Source of the DNA: Oscillospiraceae bacterium
Lineage (GTDB): Bacteria > Bacillota > Clostridia > Oscillospirales > Ruminococcaceae
NCBI GenBank assembly: GCA_017472965.1
Contig: JAFUNR010000006.1
Location: forward strand, 1-64,000
Direction of reading: 5' to 3'
Length of the DNA: 64,000 bases
The notes beneath the pieces are model-generated. The model saw only the letters and a list, made by a program, of their open reading frames with translations, was not told where the DNA came from and did no database searches. Below, one piece after another: positions 534 through 60,030 of this stretch. The translations under genes and the position numbers were made by a program. Numbering within the stretch: position 1 is the first letter of the stretch; every line of letters starts with the position of its first letter.

Positions 534-562
534 TTGACTTTTCTTTGTTCGGCTGATAAAAT
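534..562 (+). promoter_or_regulatory. promoter of the nucleoside importer operon
   Basis: The -35 TTGACT (534-539) and -10 TAAAAT (557-562) are separated by 17 bases. Transcription from about 570 gives a leader of about 300 nt containing the riboswitch at 599-750. Confidence 0.75.
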
Positions 563-598
563 TTGATATGTATTATTTATTAAAAAAATATTACCGAA

Positions 599-673
599 GC
601 GTTCGATACATCGCAAATGATATGGATTTGAAGTTTCTGGCCGGATGCCGTAAATGTCCGGGCTATCGATCGC
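599..673 (+). promoter_or_regulatory. variant purine-class riboswitch aptamer
   Basis: This is a three-way junction typical of the guanine/adenine/2'-deoxyguanosine family. P1 is GCGTTCG (599-605) with CGATCGC (667-673), one T-T mismatch. P2 is CAAAT/ATTTG with loop GATATGG (619-625). P3 is CCGGATG/TGTCCGG with loop CCGTAAA (648-654). J2/3 holds AAGTTTCT (631-638) and J3/1 is GCTAT (662-666). By alignment with B. subtilis xpt recalled from memory, U47 (634), U51 (638) and the specificity base C74 (663) are kept. U22, A52 and A73 are replaced by C609, G639 and G662, and C53 by G640. The C at position 74 predicts guanine-like Watson-Crick recognition. The altered triple predicts a changed pocket, for example 2'-deoxyguanosine or another purine. 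It precedes a BMP-family nucleoside importer. Confidence 0.88.
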
Positions 674-750
674 GTTGTTCCCTTCTGCGGGATAGTCGAA
701 ACAACGCACCGATAGGGTATTGTGTACCTTGATCGGTGTTTTTTGTTTTT
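663..750 (+). terminator. riboswitch expression platform with antiterminator and terminator
   Basis: The terminator stem is CACCGAT (707-713) with ATCGGTG (732-738), extended by AGGGTA/TACCTT and followed by a T-rich tract at 739-750. The competing antiterminator pairs CTATCG (663-668) with CGATAG (710-715) and GCGTTGTT (672-679) with AACAACGC (700-707). It takes bases from both the aptamer P1 3' strand and the terminator 5' strand. Ligand binding should stabilise P1, free the terminator and switch the importer off. Confidence 0.85.
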
Positions 751-868: not shown

Positions 869-2053
869 ATGAAAAAGATTATCGCACTGCTGCTCGTTCT
901 GGCTATGGCGTTTTCCTTTGCTGCCTGCAGCAGCGGAAGCGCTGATGATACCGCTGATTTCAAGGCCGGTTTCATCTTCCTGCACGACGAGAACTCCACC
1001 TATGACCTGAACTTCATGAACGCCACCAAGGAAGCCTGCGAGGCTCTGGGCGTTGAGTATGTGACCAAGGTCAATATCCCCGAGTCCGAGGCCTGCTATG
1101 ATGCCGCTGCCGAGCTGGTTGAGGATGGCTGCACCTACATCTTCGCCGATTCCTTCGGCCATGAGCCCTACATGCTGCAGGCTGCCAAGGAATTCCCCGA
1201 TGTTCAGTTCTGCCATGCCACCGGTACGCAGGCTCACACCGCCGGTGTTGAGAATTACCACAACGCTTTCGCCAGCATCTACGAAGGCCGCTTCCTGGGC
1301 GGTGTTGCTGCCGGCATGAAGCTCAATGAGATGATCGCCAACGGCGAGTTCACCGCTGACGAGGCCAAGGTCGGTTACATTGGCGCTTTCCCCTATGCTG
1401 AGGTTATCTCCGGTATGACCTCCTTCTTCCTGGGTGTCCGCTATGTCTGCCCCACTGCCACCATGGATGTGACCTTCACCAACTCCTGGTATGATCCCAC
1501 CCTGGAGCAGGAAGGCGCTGTCAAGCTGATCAACAACGACTGCAAGCTGATCTCCCTGCATGCCGACTCCATGGGCGCTCCCACCGAGTGCCAGAACAAC
1601 GGCGTTCCCTTCGTGTTCTACAACGGCTCCGCTATGGATGCCTGCCCCGATACCTACATCGTTGCTTCCTACATCAACTGGGCTCCCTACATGATGTACT
1701 CCATGGAGGCTGCCATGAAGGGTGAGCCCATCGCCGCCGACTGGATCGGCACTCTGGAGAACGGCGGTGTTGCTCTGAAGGAGCTCAACGAGTCCGTTGC
1801 CGCCGAGGGCACTGCTGCCAAGCTGGAAGAGGTCAAGAACGCTCTGCTGGATGGCTCTCTGAAGGTCTTTGACACCGACACCTTCACCGTGAACGGCGAG
1901 GCTGTCGACAGCTACCTGGCTGACGTTGACGATCTGGGCGACTTTGTTCCCGAGACCGAGGTTGTGATCGACGGTTACTTCCATGAGTCCGAGTTCCGTT
2001 CCGCTCCCTACTTCGATATGTTCATCGACGGTATCACCAACCTCGACGCATAA
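869..2053 (+). CDS. BMP-family nucleoside-binding lipoprotein of an ABC importer
   Basis: This is the extracellular substrate-binding lipoprotein of a BMP/PnrA-type (YufN-like) ABC importer, a family that captures purine and other nucleosides. The 394-residue product starts with a lysine-rich signal peptide and a lipobox ending FAAC near residue 20, followed by a Ser/Gly linker. The start ATG has a GAGGAGAGG site about 8 bases upstream. The gene is first in a four-gene operon with the ATPase and two permeases that define this importer class. A purine-type riboswitch and terminator sit in its 300-nt leader, which supports a purine nucleoside substrate. Codon use is strongly biased to C- and T-ending codons, as expected for an abundant binding protein. 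The exact ligand is inferred. Confidence 0.9.
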   Translation: MKKIIALLLVLAMAFSFAACSSGSADDTADFKAGFIFLHDENSTYDLNFMNATKEACEALGVEYVTKVNIPESEACYDAAAELVEDGCTYIFADSFGHEPYMLQAAKEFPDVQFCHATGTQAHTAGVENYHNAFASIYEGRFLGGVAAGMKLNEMIANGEFTADEAKVGYIGAFPYAEVISGMTSFFLGVRYVCPTATMDVTFTNSWYDPTLEQEGAVKLINNDCKLISLHADSMGAPTECQNNGVPFVFYNGSAMDACPDTYIVASYINWAPYMMYSMEAAMKGEPIAADWIGTLENGGVALKELNESVAAEGTAAKLEEVKNALLDGSLKVFDTDTFTVNGEAVDSYLADVDDLGDFVPETEVVIDGYFHESEFRSAPYFDMFIDGITNLDA

Positions 2054-2202: not shown

Positions 2203-2247
2203 TTTGTGGAGTGCCCATCATTTTATACAGAACTGGAGGACGAGCCT

Positions 2248-3777
2248 TTGGAGAAGAAAATTGCCACTGTAAAAATGCGGAACATCACCAAAACGTTCGG
2301 TACGGTTGTCGCCAATGACAAGGTGTGGCTGGATATTTATAAGGGGGAGATCCTTGCGCTGCTGGGCGAAAACGGCAGCGGAAAGACGACCCTGATGAAT
2401 ATGCTTTCCGGCATTTACTTTCCGGATGAAGGCGATATTTTCATCAACGACGAAAAGGTGGTCATCCGCTCCCCGAAGGATGCCTTTGACCACGGTATCG
2501 GTATGATCCACCAGCATTTTAAGCTGGTCGATGTGCTTACCGCTGCGGAAAACATCATTCTGGGTCTGGAAGGCAAACTGGATCTCAAGGCGGCGACCGA
2601 GAAGATCCGCCGGATCTGCGAGGCCTACGGCTTTGAGGTGGATCCCAACCAGAAGGTCTACGATATGTCCGTATCCCAAAAGCAGACGGTGGAGATCGTC
2701 AAGGTTCTTTTCCGCGGCGCTGACATCCTGATTCTGGATGAACCCACTGCCGTCCTTACCCCGCAGGAGACGGATAAGCTGTTTGCGGTGCTGCGCAATA
2801 TGCGCAACGACGGAAAAGCCATCGTGATCATCACCCACAAGATGCATGAAGTGGAGAAGCTTTCCGACCGGGTGGCCATTCTGCGCCATGGCCAGTTTGT
2901 CGGTGATCTGCCCACAGAGGGAACCGATGCGCAGGAGCTGACCAACATGATGGTCGGCTATTCCGTGAATCTGAATATTGCCCGCCCCGATCCGGTGGAT
3001 CCCAAGCCCCGTATCGAGGTGAACGGCCTGACAGTGCGCTCCATCGACGGTGTGCTGAAGCTGCAGGATGTTTCCTTTACCGCCATGAGCGGCGAGATCC
3101 TTGGTATTGCCGGTATTTCCGGCAGCGGCCAGAAAGAATTGCTGGAGGCCATTGCCGGTCTGCAGCCGGTGGAGAGCGGCTCCATCTGCTATGTGGAGGA
3201 TGACGGCACCCGCGATGAGCTGCTGGGCAAGGATCCGCTGAGTATTGCCGAAAAAGGCATCAGCCTTTCTTTCGTTCCCGAAGACCGTCTGGGCATGGGG
3301 CTTGTGGGCGGCATGGACCTGAGCGACAATATGATGCTCCGTTCCTTCCGCAAGGGCAGGAGCGTCTTCACCGACCGTAAGAGTCCGCGCCGTCTGGCAA
3401 AGCAGGTGGTGGAAGAGCTGAATGTCAAAACCCCCAGCATCGAAACGCCGGTGCGCAAGCTTTCCGGCGGCAACGTGCAGAAGGTTCTGGTCGGCCGCGA
3501 GATCGCCTCGGCGCCCAAGGTGCTGCTGACCGCCTATGCGGTGCGCGGTCTGGATATCAATTCCTCTCATACGATCTACGATCTGATCAACCAGCAGAAG
3601 CAGAAGGGTGTGGCCGTCGTCTACGTCGGCGAGGATCTGGATGTGCTGCTGGAGCTCTGCGACCGCATTCTGGTGCTCTGCGCCGGCAAGGTGAGCGGCA
3701 TCGTTCCCGGCAGAGGTGCGAAGAAGCGGGATGTGGGTATGATGATGACCCGCCTTGGAGGTAACAGCAATGAATAA
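2248..3777 (+). CDS. ABC transporter ATP-binding protein, two fused nucleotide-binding domains
   Basis: This cytoplasmic energiser of the nucleoside importer is YufO/PnrB-like. Its 509 residues hold two ATPase domains. The first has a Walker A motif GENGSGKT at residues 40-47, a Q-loop in HQHFK, a relaxed signature MSVSQKQ and Walker B ILILDEPTA. The second has the degenerate GISGSGQKE loop usual in this family, a canonical LSGGN signature and the RGLD segment. I place the start at TTG 2248 because GGAGGA lies 7 bases before it and the product then begins MEKKIATVKM. An in-frame upstream GTG at 2206 falls inside a hairpin and lacks a site. The last 8 bases overlap the next gene. Confidence 0.9.
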   Translation: MEKKIATVKMRNITKTFGTVVANDKVWLDIYKGEILALLGENGSGKTTLMNMLSGIYFPDEGDIFINDEKVVIRSPKDAFDHGIGMIHQHFKLVDVLTAAENIILGLEGKLDLKAATEKIRRICEAYGFEVDPNQKVYDMSVSQKQTVEIVKVLFRGADILILDEPTAVLTPQETDKLFAVLRNMRNDGKAIVIITHKMHEVEKLSDRVAILRHGQFVGDLPTEGTDAQELTNMMVGYSVNLNIARPDPVDPKPRIEVNGLTVRSIDGVLKLQDVSFTAMSGEILGIAGISGSGQKELLEAIAGLQPVESGSICYVEDDGTRDELLGKDPLSIAEKGISLSFVPEDRLGMGLVGGMDLSDNMMLRSFRKGRSVFTDRKSPRRLAKQVVEELNVKTPSIETPVRKLSGGNVQKVLVGREIASAPKVLLTAYAVRGLDINSSHTIYDLINQQKQKGVAVVYVGEDLDVLLELCDRILVLCAGKVSGIVPGRGAKKRDVGMMMTRLGGNSNE

Positions 3778-4867
3778 AACAAGAGAGCCTCTTTTCCATA
3801 TTGTCAAGCGGGGCGAGATGCCCTGGTACTTCGGATGGTCTGTCCGTGCGGTCTCCATCGTGCTGGCTCTTGCCTGCTGCGGTCTGATCACTGTGCTGGT
3901 CACCTCCGAAAACCCCATCAAGATCTTTTCCACCATCATTGACGGTTCTTTCGGCTCCAGCCGCAAATTCATGGTGCTGCTGCAGAATACCGCCATGCTG
4001 CTGTGCATTGCACTGGCGCTGACTCCTGCATTCAAAATGCGCTTCTGGAATATCGGCGGCGAGGGTCAGGCTCTTGCGGGTGCGCTGGCCTCTGCAGCAT
4101 GTATGATCCTGATGAAGGATCAGCCCAATCTGGTGGTGATCCCCTGTATGGTTGTCACCAGCATTCTGGCGGGTGCGCTCTGGGGCGCTGTTCCGGCCTT
4201 CTTCAAAGCCAGATTCGGCACCAACGAGACCCTCTTCACGCTGATGATGAACTATGTGGCCACACAGATCGTGGCCTACTTCTCCGTGGTGTGGGAAAAC
4301 CCCAAGGGCTCGGGCAATATCGGCGTGATCAATCCGTTATCAAAGGTGGGCTGGTTCCCGGAGATCTTCGGATCCAAATATGCCCTGAATATCATCATCG
4401 TCGCGCTGGTGACCGTCGCCATGTACATTTATCTCAACTATTCCAAGCACGGCTATGAGATCTCCGTTGTCGGCGAGAGCGAGCGTACCGCCAGATACAT
4501 CGGCATCAAGGTGGAGAAGGTCATCATCCGCACCATGCTGATCTCGGGCGCTGTCTGCGGCCTTGCCGGTCTGCTGCTGGTGGGCGGCACCAATCACACC
4601 CTCAATGCGGATATCGTTGCCGGCCGCGGCTTTACCGCCGTTATGGTCTCCTGGCTGGGCAAATTCAATCCCGTCTGGATGATCTTCACCAGTGTCCTGC
4701 TGGTTTTCCTTGAGCGCGGCGCCGGCGAGATCGCCACCGATTTCGGCCTGAACGCCTCCTTCGGTGATATTCTGACCGGTGTGATCCTGTTCTTCATCAT
4801 CGGCGGCGAATTCTTTATCAATTATAAGCTCAGTTTGACAAAAGCTGCGAAAAAGGAGGGGAAATGA
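3770..4867 (+). CDS. ABC importer permease (YufP/PnrC-like)
   Basis: This is one of the two membrane subunits of the nucleoside importer, 365 residues with about ten hydrophobic segments and the BPD_transp_2 character of sugar and nucleoside importers. Typical stretches include the glycine-rich NIGGEGQALAGA region near residue 90 and TNETLFTLMMNY near 150. The start ATG 3770 follows GGAGGTAACAGCA and overlaps the ATPase stop, which indicates translational coupling. It pairs with the permease that follows, whose start overlaps its stop by 4 bases. Confidence 0.9.
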   Translation: MNKTREPLFHIVKRGEMPWYFGWSVRAVSIVLALACCGLITVLVTSENPIKIFSTIIDGSFGSSRKFMVLLQNTAMLLCIALALTPAFKMRFWNIGGEGQALAGALASAACMILMKDQPNLVVIPCMVVTSILAGALWGAVPAFFKARFGTNETLFTLMMNYVATQIVAYFSVVWENPKGSGNIGVINPLSKVGWFPEIFGSKYALNIIIVALVTVAMYIYLNYSKHGYEISVVGESERTARYIGIKVEKVIIRTMLISGAVCGLAGLLLVGGTNHTLNADIVAGRGFTAVMVSWLGKFNPVWMIFTSVLLVFLERGAGEIATDFGLNASFGDILTGVILFFIIGGEFFINYKLSLTKAAKKEGK

Positions 4868-5868
4868 TCATGCTCGAAGCGATTCTTTCTTTCATTCCCC
4901 GTGCCATTGCACAGGGCGTGCCGCTTTTGTACGGAGCCACCGGCGAGATCATCACCCAGAAGTCGGGTAATATGAATCTGGGTATCCCCGGTGTCATGTA
5001 TGTCGGCGGCATCTGCGGTGTCATCGGCGCTTTCCTGTATGAGCAGAGCCTGCCCTCGCCCGAGGCCATCAACCCGGTGCTGGCCGTGCTGATCCCCACG
5101 CTGTTCAGTCTTATCGGTTCGCTGCTGATGGGCCTGCTTTTCTGTTTCCTCACCGTGACCCTGCGTGCAAACCAGAATGTCACCGGCCTTGCCATGACCA
5201 CCTTCGGCGTGGGTTTCGGCAACTTCTTCGGCGGCTCTCTGGTCAAGCTTTCCGGTGCGGATATGCCTTTTCTGGCACTTTCTGCCACCTCCAACTGCTT
5301 TAAGAAAACCCTGCCCTTTGCAGATAAGCTGGGCGTTTTCGGCGACCTTGTGCTGGGCTACAGCTTCCTTGTGTATCTGGCCATTGCCATTGCACTGATC
5401 GCCGCCTTTGTCATCAACCGCACCCGTACCGGCCTGCACCTGCGCGCTGTCGGCGAAAATCCCGGCACTGCGGATTCCGCCGGTATCAATGTCAACCGCT
5501 ACAAGTATTTTGCCACCTGCCTTGGCTGCATGATCGCAGGTCTGGGCGGTCTGTACTATGTCATGGATTACGCCAGCGGTATCTGGGCCAACAATGCTTT
5601 TGGCGACAGAGGCTGGCTTGCCATTGCACTGGTCATTTTCACTATCTGGCGGCCCAATGTGGGCGTGCTGGCTTCCTTCCTGTTCGGCGGCCTGTATATC
5701 CTGCATATGTACATTCCCTCCGGCATGAATCTTGCCGTGAAGGAGCTGTACAAAATGCTGCCCTATGTGGTGACCATCGTGGTGCTGATCATCTCTTCGC
5801 TGCGCAACCAGCGCGATAAGCAGCCGCCGCAGTCCCTCGGTTTGCCGTATTTCCGCGAGGACAGATGA
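4864..5868 (+). CDS. ABC importer permease (YufQ/PnrD-like)
   Basis: This second membrane subunit of the importer has 334 residues and multiple transmembrane helices. Recognisable family stretches are TGEIITQKSGNMNLG near residue 25 and LRAVGENPGTADSAGI near residue 195, typical of the shorter permease of BMP-linked importers. Its ATG overlaps the preceding TGA as ATGA and has AAGGAGGGG just upstream. It is the last gene of the operon; a terminator hairpin follows at 5913-5954. Confidence 0.9.
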   Translation: MIMLEAILSFIPRAIAQGVPLLYGATGEIITQKSGNMNLGIPGVMYVGGICGVIGAFLYEQSLPSPEAINPVLAVLIPTLFSLIGSLLMGLLFCFLTVTLRANQNVTGLAMTTFGVGFGNFFGGSLVKLSGADMPFLALSATSNCFKKTLPFADKLGVFGDLVLGYSFLVYLAIAIALIAAFVINRTRTGLHLRAVGENPGTADSAGINVNRYKYFATCLGCMIAGLGGLYYVMDYASGIWANNAFGDRGWLAIALVIFTIWRPNVGVLASFLFGGLYILHMYIPSGMNLAVKELYKMLPYVVTIVVLIISSLRNQRDKQPPQSLGLPYFREDR

Positions 5869-7653: not shown

Positions 7654-9804
7654 ATGGCGGAAGAAAAGAAGATTCGTTTGGCATTTCCTGCGAAACGGAC
7701 ACACGGCGAGCAGGTTTTCCCCAGCCCTGCTGACGGGGAGACCGTGGCCGAAAACCCGCCGGTGCTGGTCTGGCTGCCGCCTGTGCCGGAGCAGGGCGAT
7801 CTCTCCGGCGTGAAGTTTCGCTATCACTGTGCGGTGACGAACACACAGGGGCAGGAGGTCTTTGCCTGTGATACCGGCTCGACAGCCGTGTGTATCGATG
7901 GGCCTCTGGAGCCGGGCGAATATACATGGGATGTGACTGTGCCGGAATACGGTACCGCGCGCGGAAAGCAGCGCTTTACCGTGCCGGAGGATGCGGTTTC
8001 ATGGCAGCGTCCTGGTGTGGAAGATGTGCTGGCAGGGCTGCCGGCAGAGCGCCCGCGCCACCTGTTTACCAAGAAGGAGATCCCTGCGATTCTGGCTTCG
8101 CACAACGAGGAACTCGAAGTGCTGAAGCGCAACATCGCGCAGGCCTATCTGGACGGCCTGCCGGAGCGCCCGATGTTCCATACAGATGAAAGCGCTCTGC
8201 CGTACCGGGAGTATTTTGGTCGTTTCCGCGATTTCTGCGACCGGAATCTGGTGGCCTGTTCCTTGGGTTACGCTCTGCTGGGGGATGAAAAAGCCGGTGC
8301 TTTTGCCAAAAAGCTGTTTTTGCATCTTTGTGACTGGAACCCGGAGGGCCCCTGCGCACTGTACCCGGCCCTGTGGGGCGACGAAGTGGGGCTGAGCTGT
8401 GCCCGATGCTTTCCGGCGGTGTTCGATCTGCTTTATCCGCTGCTTTCGGAAAAGGAACGGCTGTATGCGGGTGCGGCAGTCGCCGCCTATGCCCTGCAGT
8501 GCGAAAAGCGGATCGATGCGCAGAACTACGAGCTGAATCCGGGCAATTCCCACACGGGCCGCCTGCCTGCTTATCTGGGTGAAGCGGCGCTTGTGCTCTG
8601 GGGCTGCGGTATCTGCCCGGAGGATGTGCTGAAAAAGTGGCTGGAGAAAGCTCTCGGCATCTACAACGGCATCTTTCTGTATTACGGCGGTGCGGACGGA
8701 AGCTGGGCGGAGGGCACCTTTTATTCCACCAGCTATACAAAATGGTATCTGCCTTTCTTTTCGGCAGTGTACCGTTATTCCGGCTGTACCTTTCTGGAGC
8801 GCCCCTTCTTCCGCAACTATGCCCGCTTCCTGCTGCACTTTGCCCAGCCGGATCATGAGCTGCATCCCTTCTGCGACGGCTATTGGTGCACCCCCGAATC
8901 GGCGGAGTGGCCCGGCTTTTTCGCGCAGAACCCGTTCCGAATCTATGCCGGTCTGTCCGGACTGCCGGAGGCGTTGGAAATGGAGCGGAAGCTGGCGGTG
9001 CCCGGACTTTTCTATCTGCATCTGCTGGATGTGTTTCTGCCGCCGGTGCCGGCAGGCTCCGGAGCGGCGGCTCCTGTCACGGATGCGGATGCCTTCCGGG
9101 ATGCCGGCTTTGTCAGTCTGCACAGCGACCGTACCGACCCGCAGCGGGATCTGCACCTGATGGCCCGCGCCAGCAAATACGGCCCGGGCAGCCATCGGCA
9201 GCCGGATAACGGCAGCTTCCATCTGTTCTGCGGCGGTACGGCGCTGCTTTGCCCCTCCGGTTATTTCGGGCGGGAATGCGCCTCCACCCATCACATGAAA
9301 TGGTATAACACCACAAAAGCGCATAACGCCATTCTGATCGACGGCATCGGCCAGAGCTATCTGGATTACCGTCACACGGGAAAGATCCTTTCCTGCGGGA
9401 TAGAGGCGGACGGTTCACGAAAGGCTGTTCTGGATCTGTCGGAATCCTACCCCATGTTGGAAAAGTGGGTGCGCACCCTGACGGTAGCGGACGGTCACAC
9501 GGCGGTCATCGAGGATACTGTTATCGCCGAAAACGCTGTGACGGTCACCTATGCGCTGCACACCATGTCCGAGCCGCAGCCCTGTGGCGAGGGCTTCGCG
9601 GTGGAGCGCGGCGGTAAACAGATGGAAGTGATCCCCGCGCCGGGACAGTTTATCTCGCGGAGCTTTTCGGATACCTATGATGTGGATCTGAACGCCGATG
9701 TTCCCGAAGCGTATCATGTGACGATGCCGCAGCAGTACCATGTTTATTTTGAGACAGAAAAAAAGAGCGTTCATCACCTGCGCGTTGTGATCAAGGTAAA
9801 ATAA
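7654..9804 (+). CDS. heparinase II/III-family polysaccharide lyase-like protein
   Basis: The 716-residue protein resembles heparinase II/III or oligoalginate lyases that cleave acidic (uronic-acid) polysaccharides. Residues 1-115 are an immunoglobulin-like N-domain with the phrase FPSPADGETVAENPPVLVW, usual in this group. The middle is an alpha-toroid including NPGNSHTGRL near residue 295. The C-terminal half is a beta-sandwich with GPGSHRQPDNGSFHL near residue 510, where the conserved His and Asn of the family occur. No signal peptide is visible, so it probably acts on imported oligosaccharides in the cytoplasm. The start lies 3 bases after the oxidoreductase stop. Lyase class and substrate are not certain. 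Confidence 0.8.
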   Translation: MAEEKKIRLAFPAKRTHGEQVFPSPADGETVAENPPVLVWLPPVPEQGDLSGVKFRYHCAVTNTQGQEVFACDTGSTAVCIDGPLEPGEYTWDVTVPEYGTARGKQRFTVPEDAVSWQRPGVEDVLAGLPAERPRHLFTKKEIPAILASHNEELEVLKRNIAQAYLDGLPERPMFHTDESALPYREYFGRFRDFCDRNLVACSLGYALLGDEKAGAFAKKLFLHLCDWNPEGPCALYPALWGDEVGLSCARCFPAVFDLLYPLLSEKERLYAGAAVAAYALQCEKRIDAQNYELNPGNSHTGRLPAYLGEAALVLWGCGICPEDVLKKWLEKALGIYNGIFLYYGGADGSWAEGTFYSTSYTKWYLPFFSAVYRYSGCTFLERPFFRNYARFLLHFAQPDHELHPFCDGYWCTPESAEWPGFFAQNPFRIYAGLSGLPEALEMERKLAVPGLFYLHLLDVFLPPVPAGSGAAAPVTDADAFRDAGFVSLHSDRTDPQRDLHLMARASKYGPGSHRQPDNGSFHLFCGGTALLCPSGYFGRECASTHHMKWYNTTKAHNAILIDGIGQSYLDYRHTGKILSCGIEADGSRKAVLDLSESYPMLEKWVRTLTVADGHTAVIEDTVIAENAVTVTYALHTMSEPQPCGEGFAVERGGKQMEVIPAPGQFISRSFSDTYDVDLNADVPEAYHVTMPQQYHVYFETEKKSVHHLRVVIKVK

Positions 9805-59887: not shown

Positions 59888-59928
59888 ATCTCTTTAGACA
59901 AAGTGATGTCCGTTCAAAACCGAATACT

Positions 59929-60025
59929 GCTTATCAAGAGTGACGGAGGGGACAGGCCCTGTGAAGTCCGGCAACCTGCTGCAAGGTAAGGTGCCAAATC
60001 CTGCGGTAAATGCCGAAAGATAAGT
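59929..60025 (+). promoter_or_regulatory. SAM-I (S-box) riboswitch
   Basis: P1 pairs CTTATC (59930-59935) with GATAAG (60019-60024). The conserved core reads AAGAGTGACGGAGGGAC, then GAAGTCCGGCAACCTGC, then GGTGCCAAATCCTGC, the S-box landmarks. It precedes metK, a standard target, and is followed by a terminator. Confidence 0.95.
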
Positions 60026-60030
60026 CTTGT

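Follow-up and report, generated by a model that had tools for sequence, protein, structure and literature searches.

The window analysed here, a 64,000-nucleotide stretch of Oscillospiraceae bacterium DNA, holds a purine riboswitch in which the core pair U22-A52 has been exchanged for C22-G52. This RNA is probably an OFF riboswitch that still senses guanine, with its ligand specificity unchanged and its core rewired. It belongs to the RF00167 family, and would act on transcription and shut off a nucleoside-type ABC importer operon. The C22-G52 pair is shared by seven relatives, giving eight such aptamers in all, in agreement with the first-pass annotation, which had described a variant purine riboswitch at this place.

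The Rfam Purine model RF00167 matches positions 584-685 of the window (+) over the whole model and without gaps (54.3 bits, E 1.7e-6), a score above the gathering cut-off of 37 bits. A search of the whole genome found no other RF00167 purine riboswitch. The aptamer core at 597..675 (+) aligns gaplessly with 25 others. It is made up of P1 (601-608/664-671), P2 (612-618/626-632) with the L2 loop GATATGG (619-625), and P3 (641-647/655-661) with the L3 loop CCGTAAA (648-654), all on the forward strand. The first-pass annotation had named these helices and loops, and the Rfam search bears them out. P1 contains a single U.U mismatch (602/670). Usual numbering was transferred from the model columns, giving C609 as C22, G633 as G46, U634 as U47, U638 as U51, G639 as G52, G640 as G53, G662 as G73 and C663 as C74; the four changed nucleotides (C609, G639, G640 and G662) and the retained U47, U51 and C74 all lie where the annotation had placed them. 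The aptamer alone folds no better than shuffled sequence (z -0.42), and its fold stability is therefore no evidence for an aptamer.

The bases that contact the ligand in guanine-I riboswitches, U47, U51 and C74, are present at 634, 638 and 663, the last being the guanine-pairing nucleotide in known structures. In place of the U22 and A52 of guanine-I, the window has C609 and G639, a compensated change. In place of the A23-G46-C53 triple it keeps the canonical A23 and carries G640 at position 53. The base of P2 is unpaired (C25.A45 and G26.A44), and U24 stands in place of A24; both are common, U24 occurring in 70 of 258 distinct aptamers and its combination with C25.A45 in 27. The proposal that substitutions are confined to the layer stacking on the ligand therefore does not hold, given U24, the unpaired P2 base and a G53 that lies in the next layer.

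Covariation was assessed on an alignment of aptamers from 285 sources, with 26 of these aptamers serving to build the model; repeat loci of places already included and the lower-ranking BmpA hits L167-L174 did not enter it. The 284 aligned matches reduced to 265 distinct rows, and 258 of these with standard junction lengths were counted. Seven rows were dropped: a 20.5-bit chance match (L036, other strand) and six real aptamers (L046, L024, L026, L035, L071 and L210), all of which are U22-A52 by their listed junctions. In the 258 aptamers, counted as sequences and not as evolutionary events, the 22-52 pair is U-A in 245, C-G in 8 and U-G in 5, with none mispaired. C22 at 609..609 (+), where the consensus is U, thus belongs to a set of eight in which it always faces G52, six of them found with a pattern requiring G52. 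Such selection accounts for 11 of the 13 G52 aptamers; in these 11, position 22 is C in six and U in five, never A or G. The remaining 247 aptamers are U-A in 245 cases and C-G in two, the window and L139. Since the standard pair is kept with or without pattern selection, the alignment shows the exchange of U-A for C-G to be compensated. Within the 26-sequence alignment, 22-52 forms a standard pair in 26/26 rows, with both sides changed in eight.

Position 73 behaves differently. The first-pass annotation had treated 22, 52 and 73 as a triple that changes together. Positions 22 and 52 do change together, but position 73 is shown by the same alignment to vary independently of them: G73 is found in 54 of the 245 U22-A52 aptamers, and A73 is kept in four of the eight C22-G52 RNAs. 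The triples counted were UAA (184), UAG (54), UGA (5), UAU (5), CGA (4), CGG (4) and UAC (2), and a coupled 22/52/73 unit was rejected because G73 is common with U22-A52. As judged from these counts, G73 at 662 is ordinary variation and the G53 at 640 is the rare change, replacing consensus C next to a G52 that replaces consensus A (639..640, +). The 46-53 combination is G-C in 247 of the 258, G-G in six, G-U in three and U-U in two; in the 26-sequence alignment it is paired in 21 rows and lost in five. G73 accompanies G53 in five of the six G53 RNAs. The L315 aptamer (L332 3696-3774 (-), genome G813) has G53 and G73 with a normal U22-A52 pair, apparently an independent instance of this combination. 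It sits between purB (TIGR00928, 552.5 vs 326.2 bits) and frames that appear purL-like by eye, the purL-like gene being several short frames under table 11. The sole adenine-type aptamer among the 258, with C74U, is that at L226 1501-1577 (-) in genome G1299.

Relatives of the variant were sought in several genome sets. The RF00167 model was applied to 61 relatives and 297 family genomes (overlapping sets), and all 84 listed places were retrieved; among the aptamers at those places, C22 or G52 occurs only in the window's. GTDB 220 species genomes were scanned with a pattern requiring G52, TATGG in L2, GTYTCTG in J2/3 and CCGTAAA in L3, which gave 30 stretches. By eye, 19 of these were something else and 11 were purine aptamers: L089, L093, L095, L096, L098, L100, L103, L107, L114, L115 and L116. 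The window's set of C22, G52, G53 and G73 recurs exactly in L098, L100 and L103, whose records are of uncultured Clostridia or Clostridiales. L116 has C22, G52, G53 and A73, and L093 and L107 have C22, G52, C53 and A73. U22 with G52 was found in L089, L095, L096 and L115, which bear Bacillaceae-type names, and in L114. Genomes of the family (396), order (394), phylum (398) and class (177), in overlapping sets, were then searched with a covariance model made from seven C22-G52 RNAs, as were 21 genomes of the family of G501; sets of more than 40 genomes used stricter filters, which lose weak matches, and six matches without a locus were left out. The model added one RNA, L139 in genome G501, with C22, G52, C53 and A73. 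The C22-G52 aptamers are therefore those of the window, L093, L098, L100, L103, L107, L116 and L139, and from these searches they appear to be a rare group whose named members come from Clostridia. The letters of L2, J2/3 and L3 were fixed by the pattern in six of the eight, so that their conservation there is by construction; L2 varies among the C22-G52 relatives.

Positions 53 and 73 change separately in this natural series, which runs from U-A through U.G to C-G at 22/52 and offers ready evolutionary intermediates: C-G with C53 and A73 (L093, L107, L139), with G53 and A73 (L116), and with G53 and G73 (window, L098, L100, L103). The U22.G52 RNAs precede genes that, judged from their translations, we take to resemble xpt (L089), guaA (L095, L096) and purE (L115); the frame after the fifth, L114, is oxidoreductase-like and not a purine gene. 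Bacillus sp. V3B (L095) has three purine aptamers within 5 kb (2976-3054, 5026-5104 and 7840-7918, +), the first of which is the U22.G52 aptamer ahead of the guaA-like gene.

The leader downstream of the aptamer contains the complete antiterminator/terminator switch at 663-750 that had been described before, both elements being fully Watson-Crick and mutually exclusive. The antiterminator at 663..715 (+) pairs 663-668 with 710-715 and 672-679 with 700-707, and is also exclusive with P1. The intrinsic terminator at 707..750 (+) has a stem 707-713/732-738 with an inner stem, followed by the T-rich 739-750. The whole leader (z -2.27) and the antiterminator stretch (z -2.17) are more stable than shuffled sequences. 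A simple terminator scan of 400-900, with scanner loops restricted to 3-8, reported none. Folding was performed with pairs enforced as hard constraints. For RNA ending at nt 722, the fold that keeps P1 and the one with the antiterminator had energies of -32.4 and -32.6, 0.2 kcal/mol apart, whereas for RNA ending at nt 745 the P1-plus-terminator fold was favoured by 8.9 kcal/mol. As expected, these modelled energies match those of an OFF switch that would be tipped by its ligand. Terminator-like hairpins of differing sequence were also seen by eye 3' of the aptamers in relatives. A promoter-like TTGACT-17-TAAAAT, its -10 preceded by TG, lies at 534..562 (+; 10/12 matches in a consensus scan), and P1 starts 38 nt downstream; since 400-900 holds four promoter-like sites where shuffled sequence gives 1.2 on average, this match is suggestive only.

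We infer both the direction of control and the ligand. Guanine bound to C74 would hold P1 and block the antiterminator, and the terminator at 707-750 would stop transcription. Without guanine, 663-679 would pair with 700-715 and the importer genes would be read.

The first gene of the operon (869..2053, +) encodes a BmpA-type lipoprotein, the substrate-binding protein of an ABC importer (PF02608, PnrA-like, 88 bits vs cut-off 24.1). It is followed on the same strand by the ATPase of this importer (2206-3777, PF00005, 149.6 bits) and by its two permeases (3755-4867 and 4864-5868, PF02653, 104.5 and 92.7 bits). Among the NCBIfam matches listed for the four proteins (for the ATPase, 25 of 190), none was above cut-off. 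Sequence comparison with solved structures gave a basic membrane lipoprotein (3s99) and an atrazine-binding protein (6pi5) as the closest chains. By protein family, these four genes likely encode a nucleoside importer.

The neighbourhoods of the C22-G52 RNAs were compared. Seven of the eight are followed by a BmpA-type gene and none by a nucleoside hydrolase gene. The eighth RNA, L116, precedes a xanthine phosphoribosyltransferase (xpt) gene (NF006671, 271.7 bits vs cut-off 177), and an xpt gene also lies immediately upstream of the L098 aptamer. In the closest importer orthologue, G253, the aptamer at the same place has U22, A52, C53 and U73. Its BmpA is 89% identical to that of the window (84% over 411 gapped columns), P2, L2 and P3 are nearly alike, and by eye the terminator layout is the same. 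In G001, from the window's genus, an aptamer with U22, A52, C53 and A73 lies ahead of xpt (NF006671) and then bmpA. Homologues with U-A-A at the same locus, which the first-pass annotation had named as speaking against its reading, were found in substance: a U22-A52 purine aptamer lies upstream of bmpA in 11 of the 20 rows of a BmpA tree, including G253 and G001, the latter with A73 as well.

The BmpA tree is poorly resolved, with 9/17 inner branches open; the L093 row is truncated at 278 aa, and L149 and L154 are ungrouped, with no aptamer in reach. It requires two changes of 22-52 state, and the starred branches alone force two. Both states are found inside the starred group of the window (window, L107, L093, L139 and G253). 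A history with one change only, from which all C22-G52 RNAs would stem, does not fit this count. The history of the pair may have been one gain with a reversal in G253, two gains, or an exchange of leaders, and these are indistinguishable on the BmpA tree.

Comparison with known classes places the RNA closest to guanine-I (RF00167) in its three-way junction, L2 and L3 letters, U47, U51, C74 and A21-U75, as well as in OFF control by termination (predicted in the window) and association with purine transport or salvage genes. Guanine-I has U22-A52 and C53, whereas the window has C22-G52 and G53. The 2'-dG-I riboswitch of Mesoplasma florum is like the window in having C and G at 22 and 52 (C31 and G59), which presumably pair with each other; as described in PMC8872408, it has C58 at position 51, in contrast to U51 (U638) of the window. 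Its L3 is shorter than the seven-nucleotide L3 of the window. 2'-dG-II shares the three-way junction and C74. It is likewise described as having C at position 51 (PMC8872408), together with a G-C top P1 pair and a two-nucleotide J3/1 insertion, whereas the window has U638, A608-U664 and a two-nucleotide J3/1. The adenine riboswitch has U74 where it is described (PMC3764141), and the window has C663.

Three further classes, 2'-dG-III, guanine-II and xanthine-II, resemble the window in being rare RF00167-like variants from Firmicutes (PMC9295807). According to the descriptions in that paper, guanine-II has a one-nucleotide J2/3 insertion, and the J2/3 of the window is eight nucleotides long and gapless. 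Xanthine-II has U51G with J2/3 and J3/1 insertions, whereas the window keeps U638 and is gapless to the family model. 2'-dG-III precedes a purine nucleoside hydrolase gene and is predicted to be an ON switch, and the window's RNA precedes an ABC importer and is predicted to be OFF; the genes given for these variants are nucleoside hydrolase or xanthine oxidation genes (PMC9295807). Compared in this way by description, identity with 2'-dG-III was rejected on the genes that follow the C22-G52 RNAs. A U51G purine aptamer (GTCTCGAC) was seen at L074 2008-2086 (-) in genome G238, ahead of a gene above the cut-off for xanthine dehydrogenase XdhA (922 vs 780 bits); it resembles the xanthine-II class, but the alignment lacks the J2/3 insertion published for that class.

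The first-pass annotation had taken the importer gene to fit a nucleoside ligand. On that account the changed layer beside the ligand would shift specificity to 2'-deoxyguanosine or guanosine. A C22-G52 pair is also compatible with such a ligand by analogy with 2'-dG-I, where C and G occupy the equivalent positions (PMC8872408), rare guanine-riboswitch variants with new ligands are on record (PMC9295807), and a BmpA-type importer gene follows most of the C22-G52 RNAs. However, U51 is kept, whereas C51 is called critical for nucleoside selectivity in 2'-dG-I and 2'-dG-II (PMC8872408), and J3/1 is without insertion. U22-A52 aptamers stand upstream at the orthologous loci and xpt follows L116; on these two points a nucleoside-specific class was rejected. 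The importer gene does not itself point to a nucleoside ligand, because in Bacillus subtilis the yxjA guanine riboswitch turns down a nucleoside transporter and, as that report describes it, is likewise an OFF switch with strand exchange between P1, a central helix and the terminator (PMC9756952). The transporter of the window is a BmpA-type ABC importer, and the likeness to yxjA drawn here is one of regulation. A switch of specificity to a nucleoside is consequently improbable. Continued sensing of guanine is also consistent with the report that U22 meets the ligand through its 2'-OH (PMC3764141), so that C22 can keep this contact. The same 2013 account lists U22, A23, G46, U47, C50, U51, A52 and C53 as universally conserved (PMC3764141). 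Because G53 abolishes the G46-C53 pair, with its partner visibly unchanged, and because of that reported conservation, some loss of affinity or an altered pocket is plausible.

To assess the availability of C74, secondary structures were predicted for those of the 265 distinct aptamers that form gapless 79-mers, 148 in number and without L114 and L115. In the four G52-G53-G73 RNAs, C74 is predicted to be paired at a probability of 0.93-0.98, the four highest values of the 148, either with G52 across a G53.G73 mismatch or with G53. G52 would have C22 as its partner in the ligand-bound fold and C74 in the predicted free fold. Pairing of C74 is 0.07-0.18 in the three C22-G52-C53-A73 RNAs, 0.50 in L116 and 0.19-0.48 in three U22.G52 RNAs. 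The median for 137 A52 aptamers is 0.01; two of these reach 0.5, both through pairing outside J2/3, and L282 (A52) shows 0.47 through J2/3. Freeing C74 in the G52-G53-G73 RNAs costs 1.6-2.5 kcal/mol in this folding, from which it follows that its sequestration would weaken guanine binding roughly 14- to 57-fold. Nearest-neighbour folding leaves out the L2-L3 contact and the base triples, and for L116, L139 and L315 it misses the known structure.

These values raise the concern that the switch is degenerate or independent of its ligand, with G52-C74 extending P3 onto P1 so that the RNA is OFF without ligand, or with no binding left. The strong predicted pairing of C74 favours this, as do the lost G46-C53 pair (5/26 rows) and the weak base of P2, and with C74 paired at 0.93 in the free RNA the window's switch could respond poorly. 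On the other side, C74 and the uppermost P1 pairs A21-U75 and U20-A76 are kept in 8/8 C22-G52 RNAs though no search pattern required them. The window and L139, both found without the pattern, keep U47, U49, C50, U51 and L3 (L139 was found with a model trained on the other C22-G52 RNAs and is not wholly free evidence). The differing terminator-like hairpins seen by eye behind relatives also argue against decay, and 1.6-2.5 kcal/mol is small compared with nanomolar guanine binding. A degenerate switch is therefore considered unlikely. Within the preferred reading of a guanine-sensing OFF switch, G52 or G53 would act in the free RNA of this subgroup as an internal stand-in for the ligand, weakening rather than re-targeting binding. 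We infer such internal competition from the folding. Its fullest form, a self-competing aptamer in which a guanine of the RNA holds C74 and stacks P3 on P1 until free guanine displaces it, is put forward tentatively, as a reading of low probability. If true, an internal copy of the ligand, and not a change in the pocket, would determine the switch threshold. An error of assembly or chance variation in a single draft genome might be suspected, as the assembly comprises 63 contigs at 85% completeness, with 584 bases between the aptamer and a contig end. This is scarcely credible, since L098, L100 and L103 have the same C22, G52, G53 and G73 and four more records have C22-G52.

A core pair described as unchangeable has here been swapped for an equivalent one, which would mean that nature can rebuild a textbook RNA pocket. 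The 22/52 series is suited to asking which pocket layer determines affinity and which one specificity, and it bears on the possible origin of 2'-dG-I, with its C and G at those positions. Among the matches listed for purine-riboswitch variants and core positions, titles and abstract openings name no natural C22-G52 group of guanine riboswitches. Simulations of core changes have been described for positions 24, 25, 46 and 74 (PMC6649850), a coverage that, as given in that source, does not extend to 22 and 52, and a 2026 covariation study is stated to draw on 2611 RF00167 sequences (PMC13273304). The window also contains a SAM-I (S box) riboswitch, RF00162, at 59928-60026 (+; 78.9 bits).
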